From Aliiroseovarius sp. F47248L (GTDB taxonomy: Bacteria > Pseudomonadota > Alphaproteobacteria > Rhodobacterales > Rhodobacteraceae): a DNA stretch of 64,000 bases. Shown here in pieces: positions 1,273 to 38,596 of this stretch. The stretch lies in the NCBI RefSeq assembly GCF_023016085.1, contig NZ_JALKBF010000001.1:2170001-2234000 (forward strand). Reading direction: 5' to 3'. The notes beneath the pieces are model-generated. The model was not told where the DNA came from and searched no databases. It saw nothing but the letters and a program-made list of their open reading frames with translations. Within the stretch, counting starts at the first letter, position 1, and each line of letters starts with the position of its first letter. Made by a program: the position numbers and the translations under genes.

Positions 1273-1867
1273 AAGCCTTCTCGTTTATTTCATACAGCGC
1301 CGTTACCGCGCTCTTAATCCGTGCCAACGCCGATGACAGGTCGATGCAGCGTTCAGATGATGATGATCGAAGAAACACCTGACCGTCCGGCAGCGTGTCA
1401 TCTTCAAACACCTGCAACGGCGTCTCATTAACGCGATCCATCAAGTGGTCGAGAACTTGCCGACTGCCAGAGGACACGCGCACTTCAATCGGCGTGTCGG
1501 CGGCTTGTTCAGCCAGCGGCATGATTTCGTCATTAATGACCTGGCTTAGCGCATCGCGCATGACTTCGGGCAGCAGTGTATCGACAATTGTGCGCAGTAA
1601 GGGTTCCAATGATCCAAGAACGTGGCTTCGCGCTTCGTGGAAAGTGAAACCAAGATCCACAAGGTTGCGGGCAAACTCAGCCTCAATGCGGTCTTTGTCA
1701 CCATCGGCTTCGTTCAGAGCATCGTCCCAACCAGCGCTGTACCCTGCTTCGTATGCGGTTAGTCGAACTTTTTCGAGCTCTGCGTCAGCGCCAGAACGAA
1801 TTCCTGAATTCGAAACAGACAAGTCAGATTGCTCAAAATCTTCCAAAGCCAGGGGTTTACTCATCAC
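1259..1867 (-). CDS. fliH: FliH-like flagellar export regulator
   Basis: A 202-residue acidic protein between fliF and fliN. It has a variable N-terminus, a central AYEAGYSAGWDDALNEA segment resembling the GxxxG-rich region of FliH, and a C-terminal part (about residues 85-200) resembling the FliH/HrpE domain. FliH binds and restrains the export ATPase FliI and links it to the C-ring. It overlaps the fliF stop by four bases (ATGA) and the fliN start by fourteen. FliH sequences are very divergent, so the call rests on position plus the GxxxG-like region. FliI itself is not in the window. Confidence 0.75.
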   Translation of the reverse strand: MMSKPLALEDFEQSDLSVSNSGIRSGADAELEKVRLTAYEAGYSAGWDDALNEADGDKDRIEAEFARNLVDLGFTFHEARSHVLGSLEPLLRTIVDTLLPEVMRDALSQVINDEIMPLAEQAADTPIEVRVSSGSRQVLDHLMDRVNETPLQVFEDDTLPDGQVFLRSSSSERCIDLSSALARIKSAVTALYEINEKAFEHG

Positions 1868-3480
1868 GCAAGCTCTTCATCTTCTTCCATCCAACCACGC
1901 AGGATTTCAACGGTATCCGACTGCCGCTCAGCGATCAGATTACGCAGCCGCTCCACCGGGTCTGGGTCAGCAATCTCTGACAGGTCTGTGTCAACGACCT
2001 CGCCGCTTGAAAGTGTTTTGACCACGGCGGGAAGGCTGGACGCATCGGCTGAACTTGCCTGCGCCGAAGGCGGGGGTGTTATTGCCACCGACGAAGACTG
2101 AAGTGATGGGTCAGGTCTCTCGGCCGCAACTTCTTCGGGACGAGCGGAAAAAATGGGCCGCAGTACGAACAATCCAAGTATCAAGGCGACAACCGCAAGA
2201 ACAATAATCTTAACCAGAGACGTCACATCGATGGCCAAGCCGGAAAGTACTCCGCCGGCAGGCGCGCTGCCCAGCGCTGGCACAGGTTCGAACTCCAACG
2301 ACTTGATGGTGATTAGATCGCCGCGCGCTTCGTCGAAACCGATCGCGCCTGCTACTAATTCGCGCAGGCTTGCGATTTCTTCGGCGCTGCGAGAGGTCCA
2401 GACCTCGTTGCCTGCATCGTCTGACGTTCTTATCCCGTCGATCAGAACGGCCACCGTCAGCCGCTTGATTGCGCCGGGTGTGGTCACCACTTCCCGGGTG
2501 GTTTCCGACACTTCGTAGTTGATCCGCTCTCGTGTCTCGGAGGTGTTCGACGAGGAGTTGCCCCCACTTGCCGCATCCCCATTTGGCAGGTTCGATGCCA
2601 CTGTGACGCCCGCACCCTCGTTGTCTTTAGCAGAATTCGACGTCTCAAGCGTGTCGGTGGACACGGCGACGCGGGTTTCAGGATCAAATCGGCGTTCCCT
2701 CAGGCTTTCGTGTTCAGTCGCTGTTTCCAGGTTAAGCTCAACTACGGCGTTTCCAAACCCGACGCGTGCTTCTAACAGACGTTCCACATTCTGCTTTAGG
2801 GTCAGCGCGCGATCAGAGGTAAGGCTGGAAATATCCGATCGTTCATCTCCAACCGCGATCAATCCGCCGCGGCTGTCGATGATCGACACGCGTTCCGGCA
2901 GCAACCCCGGCACTGCCGAAGCTACAAGGAACTTAAGTGCTTTTGCCTGCGCTCCCGGCAATGCGCCGCTAGCCGTGGTCACTGTTACCGAGGCCGATGG
3001 CTCGTTACGTTGACGAAACATTTGAGTCGAGGTGTTTGCAATGTGAACCCGAGCGTTTTGAATCAACGGGCTGGCCACAATGGTGCGCGCCAACTCTCCT
3101 TCTTTTGCACGCCAATATGCGGCATCGAACATCTGCGACGTGGTGCCAAACCCGCTCAGACCATCCAGCAGCTCATACCCTTTGCCGCCATTTGCAGGCA
3201 GCCCTTCACTGGCCAAAGTCATCCGCAGACTATCACGCTGGGACGTGTCGACAAAGATCGACCCGCCGCGAATCTCATAGACTACACCTCGCGCCTCAAG
3301 CGCTTTGACGACATCTCCTGCTGCGCCACTTTCCAAGCCCGCATAAAGCAGTGTCAGCTGACTGGTCGTCGCCATTCTGGACAGGCCAATCACCGCGATG
3401 AACATCGCGAGGGTCGCCGCCAACACGATGATGCGTTTCCGCATATCCAAACTGGTCCATATCGAGGTGATCTGCTGCAA
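1864..3480 (-). CDS. fliF: Flagellar MS-ring protein FliF
   Basis: FliF builds the MS ring in the inner membrane, the base on which the rotor and export gate assemble. The 538-residue product has a TM helix near residues 15-35, the YscJ/FliF periplasmic ring domains (LTLLYAGLESGAAGDVVKALEARGV, then the ARVHIAN segment), a low-complexity Ser/Asn stretch, the FliF C-terminal domain (NYEVSETTREVV), a second TM helix near 430-450 and an acidic cytoplasmic tail ending EEDEELA that would contact FliG. It heads the leftward operon, diverging from fliL across a 128-base region with a CtrA-like box. Confidence 0.97.
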   Translation of the reverse strand: MQQITSIWTSLDMRKRIIVLAATLAMFIAVIGLSRMATTSQLTLLYAGLESGAAGDVVKALEARGVVYEIRGGSIFVDTSQRDSLRMTLASEGLPANGGKGYELLDGLSGFGTTSQMFDAAYWRAKEGELARTIVASPLIQNARVHIANTSTQMFRQRNEPSASVTVTTASGALPGAQAKALKFLVASAVPGLLPERVSIIDSRGGLIAVGDERSDISSLTSDRALTLKQNVERLLEARVGFGNAVVELNLETATEHESLRERRFDPETRVAVSTDTLETSNSAKDNEGAGVTVASNLPNGDAASGGNSSSNTSETRERINYEVSETTREVVTTPGAIKRLTVAVLIDGIRTSDDAGNEVWTSRSAEEIASLRELVAGAIGFDEARGDLITIKSLEFEPVPALGSAPAGGVLSGLAIDVTSLVKIIVLAVVALILGLFVLRPIFSARPEEVAAERPDPSLQSSSVAITPPPSAQASSADASSLPAVVKTLSSGEVVDTDLSEIADPDPVERLRNLIAERQSDTVEILRGWMEEDEELA

Positions 3481-25400: not shown

Positions 25401-25530
25401 ATGTCTTCTCCTGTATTCTGCGAATTCTGATAGCGCAGACATATCCATGAGACCAGAGCGAAAGGGGCGTTGACCCTCGGCCTGCGGCCTCACCCCAGGA
25501 TATTTTGGGCCAGAAGAACAGCAGGGCTTG

Positions 25531-34173: not shown

Positions 34174-34602
34174 ATGACCGAAGTCACATCCGGCGCAACC
34201 GTGCGCATTCACTACACTGGAACGCTTGAAGACGGCACCGTATTTGACAGTTCCGAAGGTCGCGATCCGTTAGAGTTCACGGTCGGGTCCGGCATGATTA
34301 TCCCCGGTCTGGACAATGCCCTGCCGGGTATGGTTGTCGGTGAAAAGAAGAAAGTCACAATAGCCCCGGAAGAGGCCTATGGCCCGCGTCAGGAAGAAGC
34401 GCTTCTGGAAGTGCCGCGTGGTGATATTCCGGCAGAAATTCCGCTAGAGGTCGGTTTGCAACTGCAGATGACCGGGCAACAAGGCCAGCCGGTCCCGGTG
34501 ACGGTCACTGAGTTGACCGAGGAAAGTGTGACACTGGATGCAAATCACGCGTTGGCCGGCGAAACGCTGATCTTTGACTTCGAAGTGGTCAGTGTCGCGT
34601 AA
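34174..34602 (+). CDS. FKBP-type peptidyl-prolyl isomerase, SlyD-like
   Basis: 142 residues. The FKBP core begins VRIHYTGTLEDGTVFDSSEGRDPLEFTVGSGMIIPGLDNALPGMVVGEKKKVTIAPEEAYG, with an inserted IF (insert-in-flap) domain, as in SlyD, after about residue 70. It lacks the His-rich metal-binding tail of E. coli SlyD. It would act as a cytosolic prolyl isomerase and chaperone. The transposon begins six bases beyond its TAA, so downstream transcription context has been altered. Confidence 0.93.
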   Translation: MTEVTSGATVRIHYTGTLEDGTVFDSSEGRDPLEFTVGSGMIIPGLDNALPGMVVGEKKKVTIAPEEAYGPRQEEALLEVPRGDIPAEIPLEVGLQLQMTGQQGQPVPVTVTELTEESVTLDANHALAGETLIFDFEVVSVA

Positions 34603-34607
34603 ACTTG

Positions 34608-34632
34608 CGGCCTTATGTATCAAACGCACCAA
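34608..34632 (+). repeat. Left terminal inverted repeat of the transposon
   Basis: Twenty-five bases identical, in reverse complement, to 38124-38148. It begins six bases after the FKBP stop codon. The CCTTATGTA core recurs inside the element at 36923-36931. Confidence 0.9.
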
Positions 34633-34675
34633 CAATATAGCTGACTTTCAGTCTATTGTGAATCACCCTTGCACC

Positions 34676-35044
34676 ATGCAGGATAAGACGATCAACAATG
34701 CGCTTCTGGAACTCAGAAAGCAGGCCATTCGTGGGAGTGGTGATGGGCTGGCACATGTTGAGGCGTTGCTGACCATGCGGGGCGTTCACATGCCCCGCGT
34801 ATTGCCCGCCAAGCGCAAGGACGTGGCGCGCAAGGGTGAAATGACACAGATAGTTCTCAAGTCCCTACGCGATGGACCCAAGGCTTTACGATGCATTGTA
34901 GAAGATGTGGTGAAAGCAAGGCCGCACGTCGATCCTGACAGGTGCTACAATCGCGCGACGCAAGCGCTATACAAAATGAAGAGGCGAGGGCTGGTTGTGC
35001 AGGACTTCAGGCCGGATGGGTGTTTGTGGAAGCTGGCCCCGTAG
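34676..35044 (+). CDS. Transposon passenger, small winged-helix-like protein
   Basis: 122 residues from the ATG at 34676 (no good ribosome site, so the start is tentative; an open frame extends upstream through the transposon end). The N-terminal half is helical and basic (NNALLELRKQAIRGSGDGLAHVEALLTMRG); residues about 65-122 read like a winged helix-turn-helix domain (MTQIVLKSLRDGPKALRCIVEDVV, then YNRATQALYKMKRRGLVVQDFRPDGCLWKLAP). It lies alone on the plus strand just inside the left end. A DNA-binding role in element control is a guess. Confidence 0.6.
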   Translation: MQDKTINNALLELRKQAIRGSGDGLAHVEALLTMRGVHMPRVLPAKRKDVARKGEMTQIVLKSLRDGPKALRCIVEDVVKARPHVDPDRCYNRATQALYKMKRRGLVVQDFRPDGCLWKLAP

Positions 35045-35065
35045 GGCCAGCAGGAGGTAGTAATG

Positions 35066-35347
35066 TCAGAGCTTCAGATCACTGATGAAGGGATAGCTTC
35101 GGTTTGGGATGCGCTTACCCGTGAAATTCACGAACTCGTTGCCCCGCGTGCTCCTTTTGAGCGCATCCGTCATATGGTTGCTCATGAGATCATGAGTGTG
35201 CTTCTCGACGGAAGTCATGACATTTTCGAAGTTGTCACTTCGCCCACATCTGGGGCACGAAAAGATATCCTTCGGCTTCGGGTTAGTGGGGCCGTCCACC
35301 GCCACCTTACACTTGCCGCAAAGGACCGTTACGGTCTCACTGCTCAT
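35066..35347 (-). CDS. Transposon passenger, small zinc-ribbon protein
   Basis: 93 residues with a CxxC pair (VLCGKCKVAVDG) and a second pair (SCPRCGRSDNFENV) about 20 residues later, a typical zinc-ribbon spacing, then a helical basic half ending FTGKRIPNRSYPFISDLKL. The minus-strand reading is preferred over an overlapping plus-strand frame (35063-35350) because of these Cys pairs and because its start overlaps the GIY-YIG stop by eleven bases, as in an operon. Zinc ribbons in mobile elements often bind nucleic acid; no specific function is known. Confidence 0.65.
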   Translation of the reverse strand: MSSETVTVLCGKCKVAVDGPTNPKPKDIFSCPRCGRSDNFENVMTSVEKHTHDLMSNHMTDALKRSTRGNEFVNFTGKRIPNRSYPFISDLKL

Positions 35348-35696
35348 TAGCGAACCCCCCCAGTGCATTCTGGGCGTTAGCAGAAGGATTCAAGCCATAC
35401 CTAAGGTCAGTTTCAATGCGCAGGCTCTCGGCATCGCCCGCTACAGCAATAGCAGCGATATGAGTCATGCCGAAACGCGCGGCGCGAGCGTAGCCTTGGT
35501 GAGAGCCAATCCCAGTATTCAATCTCTGTTCAAGGGATTGGGTTTCACCAACGTAAAGAGCTTCCCAACTCCCAGAAGCGATTTGCCTACAGAAGATGTA
35601 GACCCCTGAAATTGGGTTGAAAGGTGTTCCTACAGGAAACACATCGAAACGGTATCGCGAGCCGGAATGTCCGGTCCAAGTCACAGTCATACTCAT
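35337..35696 (-). CDS. Transposon passenger, GIY-YIG domain protein
   Basis: 119 residues. Residues 31-35 (GVYIF) and 48-52 (YVGET) give the GIY and YIG elements, with Leu-Glu-Gln-Arg-Leu following, a fold used by UvrC, homing and restriction nucleases. The N-terminal part (VTWTGHSGSRYRFDVFPVGTPF) is a small beta domain. The Arg after YIG (QRLN) is present; the usual late Glu is not obvious, so activity is uncertain. A GGAG site precedes the ATG. It is operonic with the zinc-ribbon gene and follows a hairpin-rich leader. Confidence 0.7.
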   Translation of the reverse strand: MSMTVTWTGHSGSRYRFDVFPVGTPFNPISGVYIFCRQIASGSWEALYVGETQSLEQRLNTGIGSHQGYARAARFGMTHIAAIAVAGDAESLRIETDLRYGLNPSANAQNALGGFANEQ

Positions 35697-35747
35697 CGCT
35701 TTTTCTCCTTGCGATGTGTTGGCCGACTTGACTTGTGATTCCACATA

Positions 35748-35843
35748 TGGGTAAAAACCCAGTGAGAATTCTCAAACTTCCACCGGCCAACGGTGGTTTC
35801 ATTTACGCCTGAGCCGCTCCAACGGTTCAGGCGTTTTTCTTTT
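35748..35843 (+). ncRNA. Candidate structured RNA ending in a terminator
   Basis: Four successive stems lie in 86 bases: TGGGT/ACCCA (35748-35761), the palindrome TGAGAATTCTCA (35763-35774), CCACCG/CGGTGG (35780-35796) and CGCCTGAGCCG/CGGTTCAGGCG (35806-35833). The last is followed by TTTTTCTTTT, a textbook terminator on the plus strand. No plus-strand gene precedes it, so it may be a small RNA of the element, or on the other strand a structured leader of the GIY-YIG gene. No promoter was confirmed. Confidence 0.4.
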
Positions 35844-35898
35844 ACCGAATCGTGCGTGGTTGAGTCCAGCCCTTTCACCCTACATTTTGTAGTTGGGT

Positions 35899-36861
35899 TC
35901 AAGCCGACCGCTGCCAATAGCCCTTCCAACTACGCGACACCGGCGAACCCATCGCGTTAGATGTTACGATTTGGGCCAGCGTTCCATTGTCTGTACGGCG
36001 ATTATCTTCCAGCCACGCAGCGTGGTTCGCATACTGGTAAAGGTACTGAGGCGACACGTGATGGTGCTGGCCTGACACCATGTTACGCAAGCGGCTAAAA
36101 AAGCTTTCAACCATATTGGTATGCTTGCCGTGGTCGCTGTAAATCTCGGAATGGTTCACGCGGCCAACATGGTACCCGATGTGCAGCAAGTCCCAATGGC
36201 TGGCTTCATCCGCTGACATAGTGGACATACGCGAAACGTTCTCATTTGCCAGCGCAACGCCTTCTGCCTCGGACTGGCCTACGAAAGGCAGTGTGCGGCC
36301 CTCACGCTCACGCATGGCGATCACGACGCGGCGCTTGCCTGTCTGGTGGCGTTTCAAGCGGCGATCCTTACGGTCTTTTTTGGCGTTCTCAGGGCGGATA
36401 TGACCACCAAAGTATGCGCCATCAATCTCAACATGGCCTTCCAGCACTTCGCCCGTGTGGACTTCCAGCGCCATTGCTTCGCGCAACTTGTGGGCTAGAA
36501 CGAAGGCTGTCTTGTACTGGCAGTCCAGATCACGGCTGAGTTGAACCATGCTCACACCTTTGGAAGCATTCACCATGATGCAGATCGCGGCCAGCAGGTC
36601 CACAAAATCCATTTTCCGCGACGCAAAGATTGTGCCGCTGGTCACGCTGAACTGGTGGTGACACGCCTTACACTTGAATTTGCGGCGCGTGGCGATCTTG
36701 TACGCCTCGTCATAGCCGCAGCATGGGCAAACAGCTTCGCCATTCGTCTCAGGCCAGCGCATCTGGCAGAACGTCGCATACGCAGCATCTTCGCCAGCTT
36801 TGTAGATGCTGCGAAGGCTAAGTGTGCGGGACGCCGCTGAAAGAAGAAAGTGCTGTGCCAT
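35899..36861 (-). CDS. IS1595-family (ISXO2-like) transposase
   Basis: 320 residues. A zinc ribbon lies near the N-terminus (CPCC at 45-48, CKAC at 64-67), followed by a helical region and the ISXO2-like DDE domain: EIDGAYFGGH with Asp147, an Asp at 218 (MSADEASHW), and NMVESFFSRLR with Glu252. The frame is intact, so the enzyme may be active. It would cut and join the 25-bp ends of this element. It diverges from the DUF6471 gene across a 103-base region holding two direct repeats. Confidence 0.93.
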   Translation of the reverse strand: MAQHFLLSAASRTLSLRSIYKAGEDAAYATFCQMRWPETNGEAVCPCCGYDEAYKIATRRKFKCKACHHQFSVTSGTIFASRKMDFVDLLAAICIMVNASKGVSMVQLSRDLDCQYKTAFVLAHKLREAMALEVHTGEVLEGHVEIDGAYFGGHIRPENAKKDRKDRRLKRHQTGKRRVVIAMREREGRTLPFVGQSEAEGVALANENVSRMSTMSADEASHWDLLHIGYHVGRVNHSEIYSDHGKHTNMVESFFSRLRNMVSGQHHHVSPQYLYQYANHAAWLEDNRRTDNGTLAQIVTSNAMGSPVSRSWKGYWQRSA

Positions 36862-36878
36862 TTTGTATCTTATCCATT

Positions 36879-36944
36879 ACCTATGTAATGAATATAGTAC
36901 ATAGACGTATCGCACACAATACCTTATGTAATGATTATGGTACT
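36879..36944. repeat. Pair of direct repeats in the transposase/DUF6471 divergent region
   Basis: Repeat A (36879-36901, TACCTATGTAATG then AATATAGTAC) and repeat B (36921-36944, TACCTTATGTAATG then ATTATGGTAC) lie 42 bases apart, about four helical turns, with a partial third copy (TTATGTAGGTG) at 36951-36961 just before the DUF6471 start. Each contains an internal dyad. The CCTTATGTA core also occurs in both terminal repeats. They look like operators for the transposase or for the neighbouring DUF6471 protein. Confidence 0.55.
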
Positions 36945-36964
36945 TTTATTTATGTAGGTGTTAC

Positions 36965-37171
36965 ATGGCTGAGCAAAATGAGTGGGAATCTAAGGCTGCT
37001 AACCTTCTAAAGGCAGAATTGAAACGAGCTGGCATAACCTACGCTGAACTTGCAGAACGTATTGGCGAAAAAGAAGTGAATATCCGCAACAAGCTGTCGC
37101 GCGGCAAGTTCAGTGCGGCGTTTCTTATTCAGTCTCTAGTGGCGATTGGTCAGAATGAGCTTCGGCTGTAG
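36965..37171 (+). CDS. DUF6471 small helix-turn-helix protein
   Basis: 68 residues: NEWESKAANLLKAELKRAGITYAELAERIGEKEVNIRNKLSRGKFSAAFLIQSLVAIG, which matches DUF6471 as I know it, a compact helix-turn-helix resembling Xre/Cro (GITYAELAERIG and VNIRNKLSRG as the two helices). It probably binds the adjacent repeats and controls the transposase promoter. It is divergent from the transposase and its last 47 bases overlap, tail to tail, the end of the next gene. Confidence 0.8.
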   Translation: MAEQNEWESKAANLLKAELKRAGITYAELAERIGEKEVNIRNKLSRGKFSAAFLIQSLVAIGQNELRL

Positions 37172-38072
37172 GATGCACTGCGGTTATCTGAATTTCGGAT
37201 GGCGTGTAGCCGTCCGAAGTCAACTTGGAAACGACAACTACATCGGCGGTAATTTGATCTTGTTGCCATAAATCGCTTGGTTGAACTGGTTCAACGATTC
37301 TGACTTTCAAGCGTCTATCCGAAATCCCGTCTGCTATTGCGGCCCACCCTACAGCACTCTTGTCTTTGTCTTGGGCATGAATTTCGAGAGTGACGTTTTC
37401 ATGAGGCGTATAGCGGTCAAAATCCTGATCTTTATCGCTATCCCTAGGATATGGAACCTCTCCGACTGTGGCTTCTGGAATGCGGTCTCTGTCAAGCAAG
37501 ATTGGTGCGTTCCCATCTTTTTGACTGGGCAGGAAGAAGCGTTTCGACTCTCGAACCAAGCGTTTTACTGCCGCTGGCTTTTGAAACTTAGCCTCTACGA
37601 TTTTTCGTATGTCGGAGGATGATTTGCCAGTTTCGAGCGCCAAAAGATCTATCAATTCATTTAGCTTCTGACGCGGAAGGCTATCAGTGAGTGCCTTCTT
37701 TGCCATGTCGATAGCTATTCCAGTGCCGTAAAAAAGCACGGTCAAAAACACAACCGTTACGATGGTATCGTATTTGTCGCTAACTGTTAGTTTGAAGAGG
37801 TCTTCAAGCAATGGCGGAACCTCCTCTGCTAAGTCGCCCTGATAAGTTATCAATAGCGCCAGAAAGAGCGCTTCCTTGAGAGACCCTTCCGTAAGAGAGT
37901 GAACATTTAGCGAACATTCTTCGATTTGCAAGCCGTCTATCAAGCTTGGCAGCAGTGCGATGGCTTCGGAAGAGATTGCATCTGCTGCCTTGAGCGCAGC
38001 AATCACATCCCCAATGGGCGTCGGGATATTTGTCTCGTAAACTATTGAAAGCGGAACACGAATCTCTGTCAT
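37125..38072 (-). CDS. Transposon passenger, hypothetical protein with membrane segment
   Basis: 315 residues from the ATG at 38072. The N-terminal 100 residues form a soluble, acidic domain; residues about 100-120 (YDTIVTVVFLTVLFYGTGIAIDMA) are a likely TM helix. After a helical region (SLPRQKLNELIDLLALETGKSSSDIRKIVEAKFQ) comes a beta-rich C-terminal domain (VTLEIHAQDKDKSAVGWAAIADGI). I do not recognise a family. It is the last gene before the right end of the element and overlaps the DUF6471 gene tail to tail by 47 bases. A defence, attachment or toxin role is possible but unsupported. Confidence 0.6.
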   Translation of the reverse strand: MTEIRVPLSIVYETNIPTPIGDVIAALKAADAISSEAIALLPSLIDGLQIEECSLNVHSLTEGSLKEALFLALLITYQGDLAEEVPPLLEDLFKLTVSDKYDTIVTVVFLTVLFYGTGIAIDMAKKALTDSLPRQKLNELIDLLALETGKSSSDIRKIVEAKFQKPAAVKRLVRESKRFFLPSQKDGNAPILLDRDRIPEATVGEVPYPRDSDKDQDFDRYTPHENVTLEIHAQDKDKSAVGWAAIADGISDRRLKVRIVEPVQPSDLWQQDQITADVVVVSKLTSDGYTPSEIQITAVHPTAEAHSDQSPLETE

Positions 38073-38123
38073 TCTCGGAGAATTGCACACCCTCAACCTT
38101 TACGGGAGTCATTTCGAACCCGC

Positions 38124-38148
38124 TTGGTGCGTTTGATACATAAGGCCG
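38124..38148 (-). repeat. Right terminal inverted repeat of the transposon
   Basis: Reverse complement of 34608-34632 over all 25 bases. The irr stop codon is 32 bases beyond it. Confidence 0.9.
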
Positions 38149-38179
38149 GATATTTTCAGCCAGAAGAAACAGGTATGCG

Positions 38180-38596
38180 CTATTTCCGGCGCAACCGGAT
38201 CACCACATCGACCTTTGCGATTTCGGTCCCTTTAGGCGCCGTAGGCAATTGAGCGATTTTCAGATCTTCATCCGGCGCATCCATCAGTTCTTCGGTGTCT
38301 TCCCAGAAAAAATGCGGGTGATTGGTGACGTTGGTGTCGAAATAGCTGCGTGCGCCGTTCACGGTAATTTCGCGCAAAAGCCCCGCATCTGAAAATATGC
38401 GGAGCGTGTTATAAACTGTCGCAAGTGAGACCCGTTCATCGCTATCTCGCGACGCCTCATACAGGCTTTCCGCCGTCACGTGGCGATGCTGACCGTCACC
38501 AATCAGCAGCTGTGCCAAAGCAAGCCGTTGCCGGGTCGGGCGCAAACCTGCACTTGCCAGCCATGTCGCTTCTGTTGTGTCGCCGTTTTGGTTCAT
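38180..38596 (-). CDS. irr: Iron response regulator, Fur family
   Basis: 138 residues of the Fur superfamily, close to Irr of alphaproteobacteria. The winged helix is seen in LRPTRQRLALAQLL and the recognition segment SDERVSLATVYNTLRIFSDAGLLREI. The C-terminal domain has HPHFFW, but lacks the Cys pairs of Zn-structured Fur proteins, as in Irr. It diverges from fabA, the usual irr-fabA arrangement in Rhizobiales and Rhodobacterales. Irr responds to heme/iron; no ICE-like operator was identified in the 204 bases between irr and fabA. Confidence 0.85.
   Translation of the reverse strand: MNQNGDTTEATWLASAGLRPTRQRLALAQLLIGDGQHRHVTAESLYEASRDSDERVSLATVYNTLRIFSDAGLLREITVNGARSYFDTNVTNHPHFFWEDTEELMDAPDEDLKIAQLPTAPKGTEIAKVDVVIRLRRK

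Follow-up and report, generated by a model that had tools for sequence, protein, structure and literature searches.

In this work we ask what kind of mobile unit occupies positions 34608 to 38148 of the window, a 64,000-nucleotide stretch of contig NZ_JALKBF010000001.1 from Aliiroseovarius sp. F47248L (Rhodobacteraceae), and whether the genes that it encloses travel as a single set. A preliminary description of this DNA had noted 3.5 kb between two identical opposed 25-base repeats with an intact transposase inside, and had proposed that an IS1595-type transposon moves five passenger genes as one mobile unit. The repeats and the transposase were confirmed in the sequence; the gene set was not found to be conserved as one unit, as both of the places that hold accessory genes vary between related elements. 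We consider it probable that the element represents an IS1595 lineage in which a fixed core (25-bp ends, DDE transposase, DUF6471 protein and winged-helix protein) exchanges genes in two slots. With more reserve, we also lean towards a fuller reading in which the two slots make the transposon a platform for exchanging cassettes for maintenance and phage defence, with frequent insertion into a dispersed intergenic repeat, and in which 31 of 73 left slots hold two opposite-strand genes lying codon against codon over approximately 250-330 codons, both kept open by selection. The element is composed of the following features (aa, amino acids).

34608..38148: whole element, 3541 bp, bounded by perfect 25-bp inverted repeats
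34608..34632, + strand: left terminal inverted repeat, 25 bp, perfect
34676..35044, + strand: core, right-end winged-helix protein of 122 aa, pointing inward from the end
35066..35368, - strand: right-slot cargo, zinc-ribbon-like protein of 100 aa, with relatives in 3 other elements
35337..35696, - strand: right-slot cargo, GIY-YIG nuclease-like protein, with relatives in 4 other elements
35899..36861, - strand: core, IS1595-family DDE transposase (Pfam, NCBIfam) with D147, D218 and E252
36862..36964: spacer that separates the divergently oriented transposase and DUF6471 genes and contains the candidate operator dyad CATTAC-atag-GTAATG
36965..37171, + strand: core, DUF6471 helix-turn-helix-like protein of 68 aa (80.5 bits)
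37125..38072, - strand: left-slot cargo, membrane-type protein of 315 aa, overlapping the 3' end of the DUF6471 gene
38124..38148, - strand: right terminal inverted repeat, 25 bp, same as the left, perfect

Judged by its sequence, the element is a member of the IS1595 family, as had been proposed: besides having D147, D218 and E252, the transposase matches Pfam DDE_Tnp_IS1595 (126 bits) and NCBIfam IS1595 (146.4 bits, cut-off 75), its N-terminus matches Pfam Zn_ribbon_IS1595 (52.9 bits, cut-off 25.4), and the inverted repeats of the element are accompanied in its relatives by 8-bp target duplications. Relatives were collected with the transposase alone in a scan of genome contigs, which yielded 252, and the best 80 were taken further, with up to 6 mismatches in 24 positions tolerated in the search for ends. 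Both ends flank the transposase in 72 of the 80, with 0-3 mismatches in nearly all, and six of the remaining eight are cut by a contig end at the missing side (L029, L038, L057, L061, L078 and L096); L028 has no left end within its 6 kb of sequence and L048 no right end within 4.5 kb. A transposase moving with different ends was looked for in this set and was not encountered, and the accessory genes sit between the ends rather than outside them. Together with the window copy, the 72 two-ended relatives (2.3-4.6 kb in size) make up the 73 elements analysed below. Among the 71 with enough flanking sequence, 66 show 8-bp duplications (64 perfect, 2 with one mismatch), the exceptions being the window copy, L027, L039, L059 and L098. 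Within the family the transposase was found at E<=1e-30 in 15 of 198 genomes (G029 only at 31-33% identity), and an end-like site with at most 2 mismatches in 39 of 394.

Comparison of these elements separates a constant core from two variable slots. Of the five proteins originally counted as passengers, three keep that status (the membrane-type protein on the left and the GIY-YIG/zinc-ribbon pair), whereas two belong to the core: 72 of 73 elements have DUF6471 and 67 the window-type winged-helix protein (tblastn, E<=1e-3), the other six having a cluster-C3 gene in the same place. In L074 the winged-helix gene is inverted and lies beside the transposase. The window element has DNA homology to the others at the ends, along the DUF6471-transposase segment, over a short stretch at the 3' terminus of the winged-helix gene and at the right end, and this homology drops to 1-2 of 72 elements in the slots. 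In all of eight close pairs, homology ends at most 7 bases from the transposase stop codon; at the opposite boundary it breaks off within DUF6471 in seven pairs and where the transposase begins in the eighth. More than half of the left slot is common in 13 of 2628 element pairs, more than half of the right slot in 5, and both in none; the nearest approach is L023/L024 (0.62 and 0.40), two copies in one genome, L025 and L044 likewise occur together in one metagenome-assembled genome, and Roseovarius aestuarii is one species with two elements. For example, L034 and L036 have transposase DNA that is 96% identical and zero common cargo DNA, the only other DNA that they share being the ends and a 24-nt piece of the winged-helix gene, with left proteins that both fall into cluster C0. 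Conversely, the left slots of L027 and L044 are 91% identical and their transposases 82%, a pattern suggestive of one slot exchange.

The positions of the two slots hardly differ across the 73 elements, nearly all of which have them in the same places. A left-slot frame of at least 100 aa is present in all 73 and a right-slot frame of at least 85 aa in 60, the latter by a rule that overlooks at least L034 and L068. Near relatives appear to differ in left cargo more than expected by chance. As a side observation, left-slot types switch between C0 and others 29 times on a quick transposase tree of the 73 elements, which is the maximum of the range obtained in 500 shuffles (mean 23.6, range 17-29).

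To characterize the cargo, 89 representatives were scanned with Pfam, PADLOC, PHROGs and NCBIfam. Pfam returned SocA_Panacea (5), M78 (ImmA/IrrE) (4), DUF3800 (2), HTH_3 (2) and one each of RhuM, KilA-N, ClpP-like SDH, HicB-like, NYN, DUF4258, RelE, SNase, GIY-YIG and others, giving 27 families in total, several of them transposase domains. Matches to PADLOC included RmrA (5), capP (4), BstA (2) and PDC-S05 (1) among the first 25 of 68 families listed; PHROGs likewise identified BstA (2), and NCBIfam the SocA antitoxin (4), MqsA (2), NadS (1) and others. BstA is matched over its full length in L027 (405 bits) and partially (35-56 bits) in L030, L033, L046 and L072, while HEC-09 is matched in L092, PDC-S05 in L073, and a second transposase gene lies inside L035. 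The cargo forms 126 clusters, 101 of them singletons, a count to be read as an upper estimate because the longest-frame rule used to pick cargo makes wrong picks. An early hint that the passengers serve maintenance or defence fits the toxin-antitoxin (TA)-like and phage-defence-like part of the relatives' cargo; for the window's own cargo such a role is putative.

The window's own right slot had also suggested a nuclease that participates in target choice. The GIY-YIG gene, whose start was read at an ATG behind a ribosome-site-like AAGGAG, lies in an open frame extending to 35744 and overlaps the zinc-ribbon gene at its 3' end. It is conceivable that this pair forms part of the transposition machinery, acting in target choice or end processing, as a nuclease-like gene does sit inside the transposon; however, only 5 of the 73 elements have GIY-YIG and only 4 have the zinc-ribbon, and insertions of elements that lack these genes are found in targets of the same kind. 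We therefore set aside the idea of target choice by the nuclease and regard a machinery role as extremely improbable.

A more substantial alternative is that this is an ordinary IS1595 element with chance neutral passengers that play no part in maintenance or defence and owe their diversity to drift. IS1595 elements carrying further genes are already known, tISCpe8 and MTnSag1 being examples given in the excerpted text of PMC5704250, and distant relatives on plasmids (six examined of 17 records) include forms free of cargo: L173 (1132 bp) holds the transposase alone, and L169 (1543 bp) and L170 (1612 bp) the transposase and one convergent right gene, which may be the ancestor of the winged-helix gene. 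Larger plasmid relatives reach 2756 bp (L171), 3033 bp (L174) and 4813 bp (L172). The constancy of the two slot positions nevertheless speaks against chance, as does the TA or defence linkage of many recognisable cargo domains, even though the list also contains pieces of transposases and helix-turn-helix domains of a general kind. On balance we judge neutral passage unlikely. A further form was noted in L111, where an element of approximately 1.55 kb (1501-3023) with the same ends holds the winged-helix gene and only the last codons of the transposase, in addition to an MqsA-like/DUF4258-like pair identified by eye; it looks like an internal deletion and is a possible non-autonomous derivative.

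Several points weigh against a lineage dedicated to exchanging maintenance and defence genes. Among 40 cargo proteins scanned singly, 13 have a Pfam match above cut-off and 27 have none, which also favours neutral passage, and the longest-open-frame rule includes noise frames and mis-picked the window's own right slot. The window's cargo offers a sub-threshold GIY-YIG match alone (20 bits against a Pfam cut-off of 22.6, run on 35337-35744); the zinc-ribbon-like protein has no family above cut-off in Pfam or NCBIfam, PADLOC matches to these two proteins are weak (GIY-YIG 12.9 bits, zinc-ribbon 17.6 bits), and the 315-aa left-slot protein shows a hydrophobic helix at about residues 104-125 and, at its C-terminus, a beta domain that is weakly OB-like. 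The pairs compared are mostly from different species, such that the pace of swapping is not readable from them. The window copy has no 8-bp duplication, movement and expression of the element are putative, and recombination is a proposed means of swapping.

An unexpected feature of many left slots is a putative antisense gene pair, which is absent from the left slot of the window copy. In 31 of 73 elements (among L023-L101; e.g. L034:4864-5718) the left slot holds family C0 on the - strand, and an opposite + frame starts 27-72 bp from the element end, is codon-aligned with C0 in 30 of 31 and remains open for 246-335 codons in 29 of 31, the exceptions being L072 and L087. From codon 80 onwards (6574 codons), C0 nearly lacks the codons whose complements are stops: TCA accounts for 1 of 237, CTA for 2 of 331 and TTA for 1 of 122 codons. 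The corresponding values are 251/815, 220/1154 and 146/506 in 82 frames from the rest of the cargo that are 150 aa or longer and have nearly the same GC content at third positions (GC3), and 176/882, 42/1376 and 9/185 in transposase genes (GC3 0.73), such that 4 stop-making codons were observed where the first control predicts 171 and the second, stricter one 63. The + frame also begins with a hydrophobic stretch (codons 2-12) in 29 of 31 cases, whereas the two remaining frames do so in 4 and 3.

The possibility that either of the two frames, - or +, is a mere artefact of its partner was considered and examined through codon-position mismatches in 30 alignments. Over the first 150 nt of the - gene, mismatches peak at the third position of the + frame (0.367, against 0.172 and 0.154), while from nt 300 onwards they peak at the third position of the - frame, a pattern which implies that the + protein sequence is not conserved in mid-gene and that openness alone is kept. 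Outside the elements, five of ten loci with C0 homologues passed the script filter, and the picture that they give is mixed. In L177, 13 antisense stops occur in 281 codons with a longest open run of 95; the contrast is weaker in L181 (4 stops in 326 codons, run 166) and L182 (5 in 235, run 128) because whole C0 genes inside elements already contain 1-6 antisense stops. A separate comparison, of sequence inside versus outside the + frame, is partly circular and is not taken as proof, a role that falls to the count from codon 80. These data suggest that the + strand frame is kept stop-free, its translation being putative. If true, the left-slot pair would be one of the clearest long antisense gene pairs in bacteria, and the 31 diverged sequences can be used to ask whether long antisense genes are real.

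Insertion sites show a preference. Duplications and their flanks recurrently read CCCCGG/GGCGGG-GATATTTC-nngnCAGAAGAA: the core was found at 29 of 65 scorable sites, core and upstream signature at 24 and all three parts at 16, compared with 40, 6 and 1 among 18797 positions drawn at random from the same loci, under a scoring rule drawn up after the sites were seen, for which reason the size of the effect is meaningful and its exact value is not. In the window genome GGATATTTNNNVMVAGAAGA is present in 22 exact copies, whereas a reversed control is absent, and the share of insertions that fall in a dispersed intergenic repeat is roughly between a quarter and a third. Places of insertion also recur, with L030, L068, L071, L074 and L092 at one site and L060, L063 and L065 at another. 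Within the window, the dispersed repeat GGATATTT...CAGAAGA is seen at 38148-38167 and 25498-25517. The flanks of L055 and L070, read by eye, place these two elements in an apparent Mg-chelatase-like (comM/yifB type) gene.

The window insertion can be placed in this context through its flanking features, all outside the element.

34174..34602, + strand: FKBP-type isomerase gene
38149..38156, + strand: remaining 8-bp target copy GATATTTT, part of the dispersed repeat GGATATTT...AGAAGA
38180..38596, - strand: Fur-family gene

An empty site, which the preliminary description had proposed to seek, was found: a search for the FKBP protein in 26 genomes gave 17 positives at E<=1e-25, 16 of them from the same genus including the window's own, and in all 15 others of that genus the Fur gene follows within 300 nt. 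Six of these loci were read base by base, and each has the target motif GGATATTT between the two genes, as GGATATTTT (L153-L156), GGATATTTA (L157) or GGATATAT (L158), ending 59-97 nt from the FKBP stop, preceded by a GC-rich hairpin and followed by a part resembling CAGAAGAAAC. The right flank of the window element starts exactly at GATATTTTcagcCAGAAGAAAC, while its left flank is shorter than the empty sites and has neither hairpin nor left motif copy; the element thus probably entered at GATATTTT, with some 50-90 nt beside its left end lost later. In L153 the DNA behind the FKBP stop reads GCGGCCTT, which resembles the element end and may have provided the short homology at which this deletion arose.

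The same locus bears on whether the window copy is an immobile relic, that is, a chromosomal island with ends that merely resemble those of active elements. It is a single copy in its genome (the only other transposase match is 28% over 71 residues) and lacks a target duplication, as a relic might; its perfect ends, its intact transposase, the empty site in relatives and the duplications in 66 of 71 elements nevertheless make this explanation highly unlikely. The GC content of the element is 0.512, versus 0.574 in its surroundings.

Under the favoured view of a fixed core with exchangeable slots, the transposase would act at the ends and move the whole unit, as is known for the IS1595 family. 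DUF6471 is a likely repressor, which may bind the candidate dyad ahead of the transposase gene and keep transposition rare; across 63 elements, dyads in this spacer have a mean best score of 5.5, compared with 4.2 in mononucleotide shuffles. The winged-helix protein might assist at the right end or regulate. The cargo, here the membrane-type protein and the GIY-YIG/zinc-ribbon pair, to which a function can be ascribed only putatively, would make the element costly to lose or shield the host from phage. Slots could be swapped by homologous recombination between co-resident elements, with core and ends providing the homology, in which case a special enzyme would be unnecessary. The lineage thus looks like a natural shuttle for swapping TA-like and phage-defence-like genes in marine bacteria of the Rhodobacteraceae. 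It provides a test case for transposon cargo swapping and a small, countable set of elements with many untested genes at places known for TA or phage-defence genes, from which new families of these types could be chosen by position rather than likeness.

How this lineage relates to known systems can be considered at several levels. Searches of the open-licence literature (IS1595 and Rhodobacteraceae transposons, Rhodobacteraceae repeats, TA or defence passengers, GIY-YIG, cargo exchange) returned no description of this element family, with zero papers found there on DUF6471 and likewise on cargo exchange. Siguier 2009 reportedly covers the insertion sequences of the IS1595 family as well as its passenger-carrying transposons. 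Integrons exchange small gene cassettes in a fixed platform, a likeness to the present elements, although here the slots lie inside a transposon core; no tyrosine integrase domain was found among the six window genes (Pfam, NCBIfam), and cassette attachment sites were not looked for. Tn3-family transposons, as the excerpted text of PMC7157771 presents them, have repeatedly recruited and exchanged diverse TA pairs at a fixed place beside their transposition genes. The exchange of gene sets at such a place is common to both, whereas Tn3 elements rely on a Tn3 transposase and resolvase and the elements described here on an IS1595 DDE transposase, with two slots and a wider cargo; Pfam and NCBIfam detected no resolvase domain in the six genes of the window element, and res sites were not searched. 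BstA proteins are described in the excerpted text of PMC8585504 as prophage defence proteins carried by prophages, while the carrier in L027 is a 3.9-kb transposon. Finally, the passenger transposons of the IS1595 family, as the partial accounts cited here portray them, share with this lineage the transposase, the terminal inverted repeats and the placement of genes between the ends, and the 8-bp duplications are shared with the IS1595 member ISApl4, for which they have been reported (PMC12561309, likewise in excerpt). Against this background of IS1595 elements with passengers, what appears to be new, to judge from these searches, is the combination of constant DUF6471 and winged-helix partners, two exchangeable slots, TA- and defence-like cargo and a preference for a dispersed repeat.

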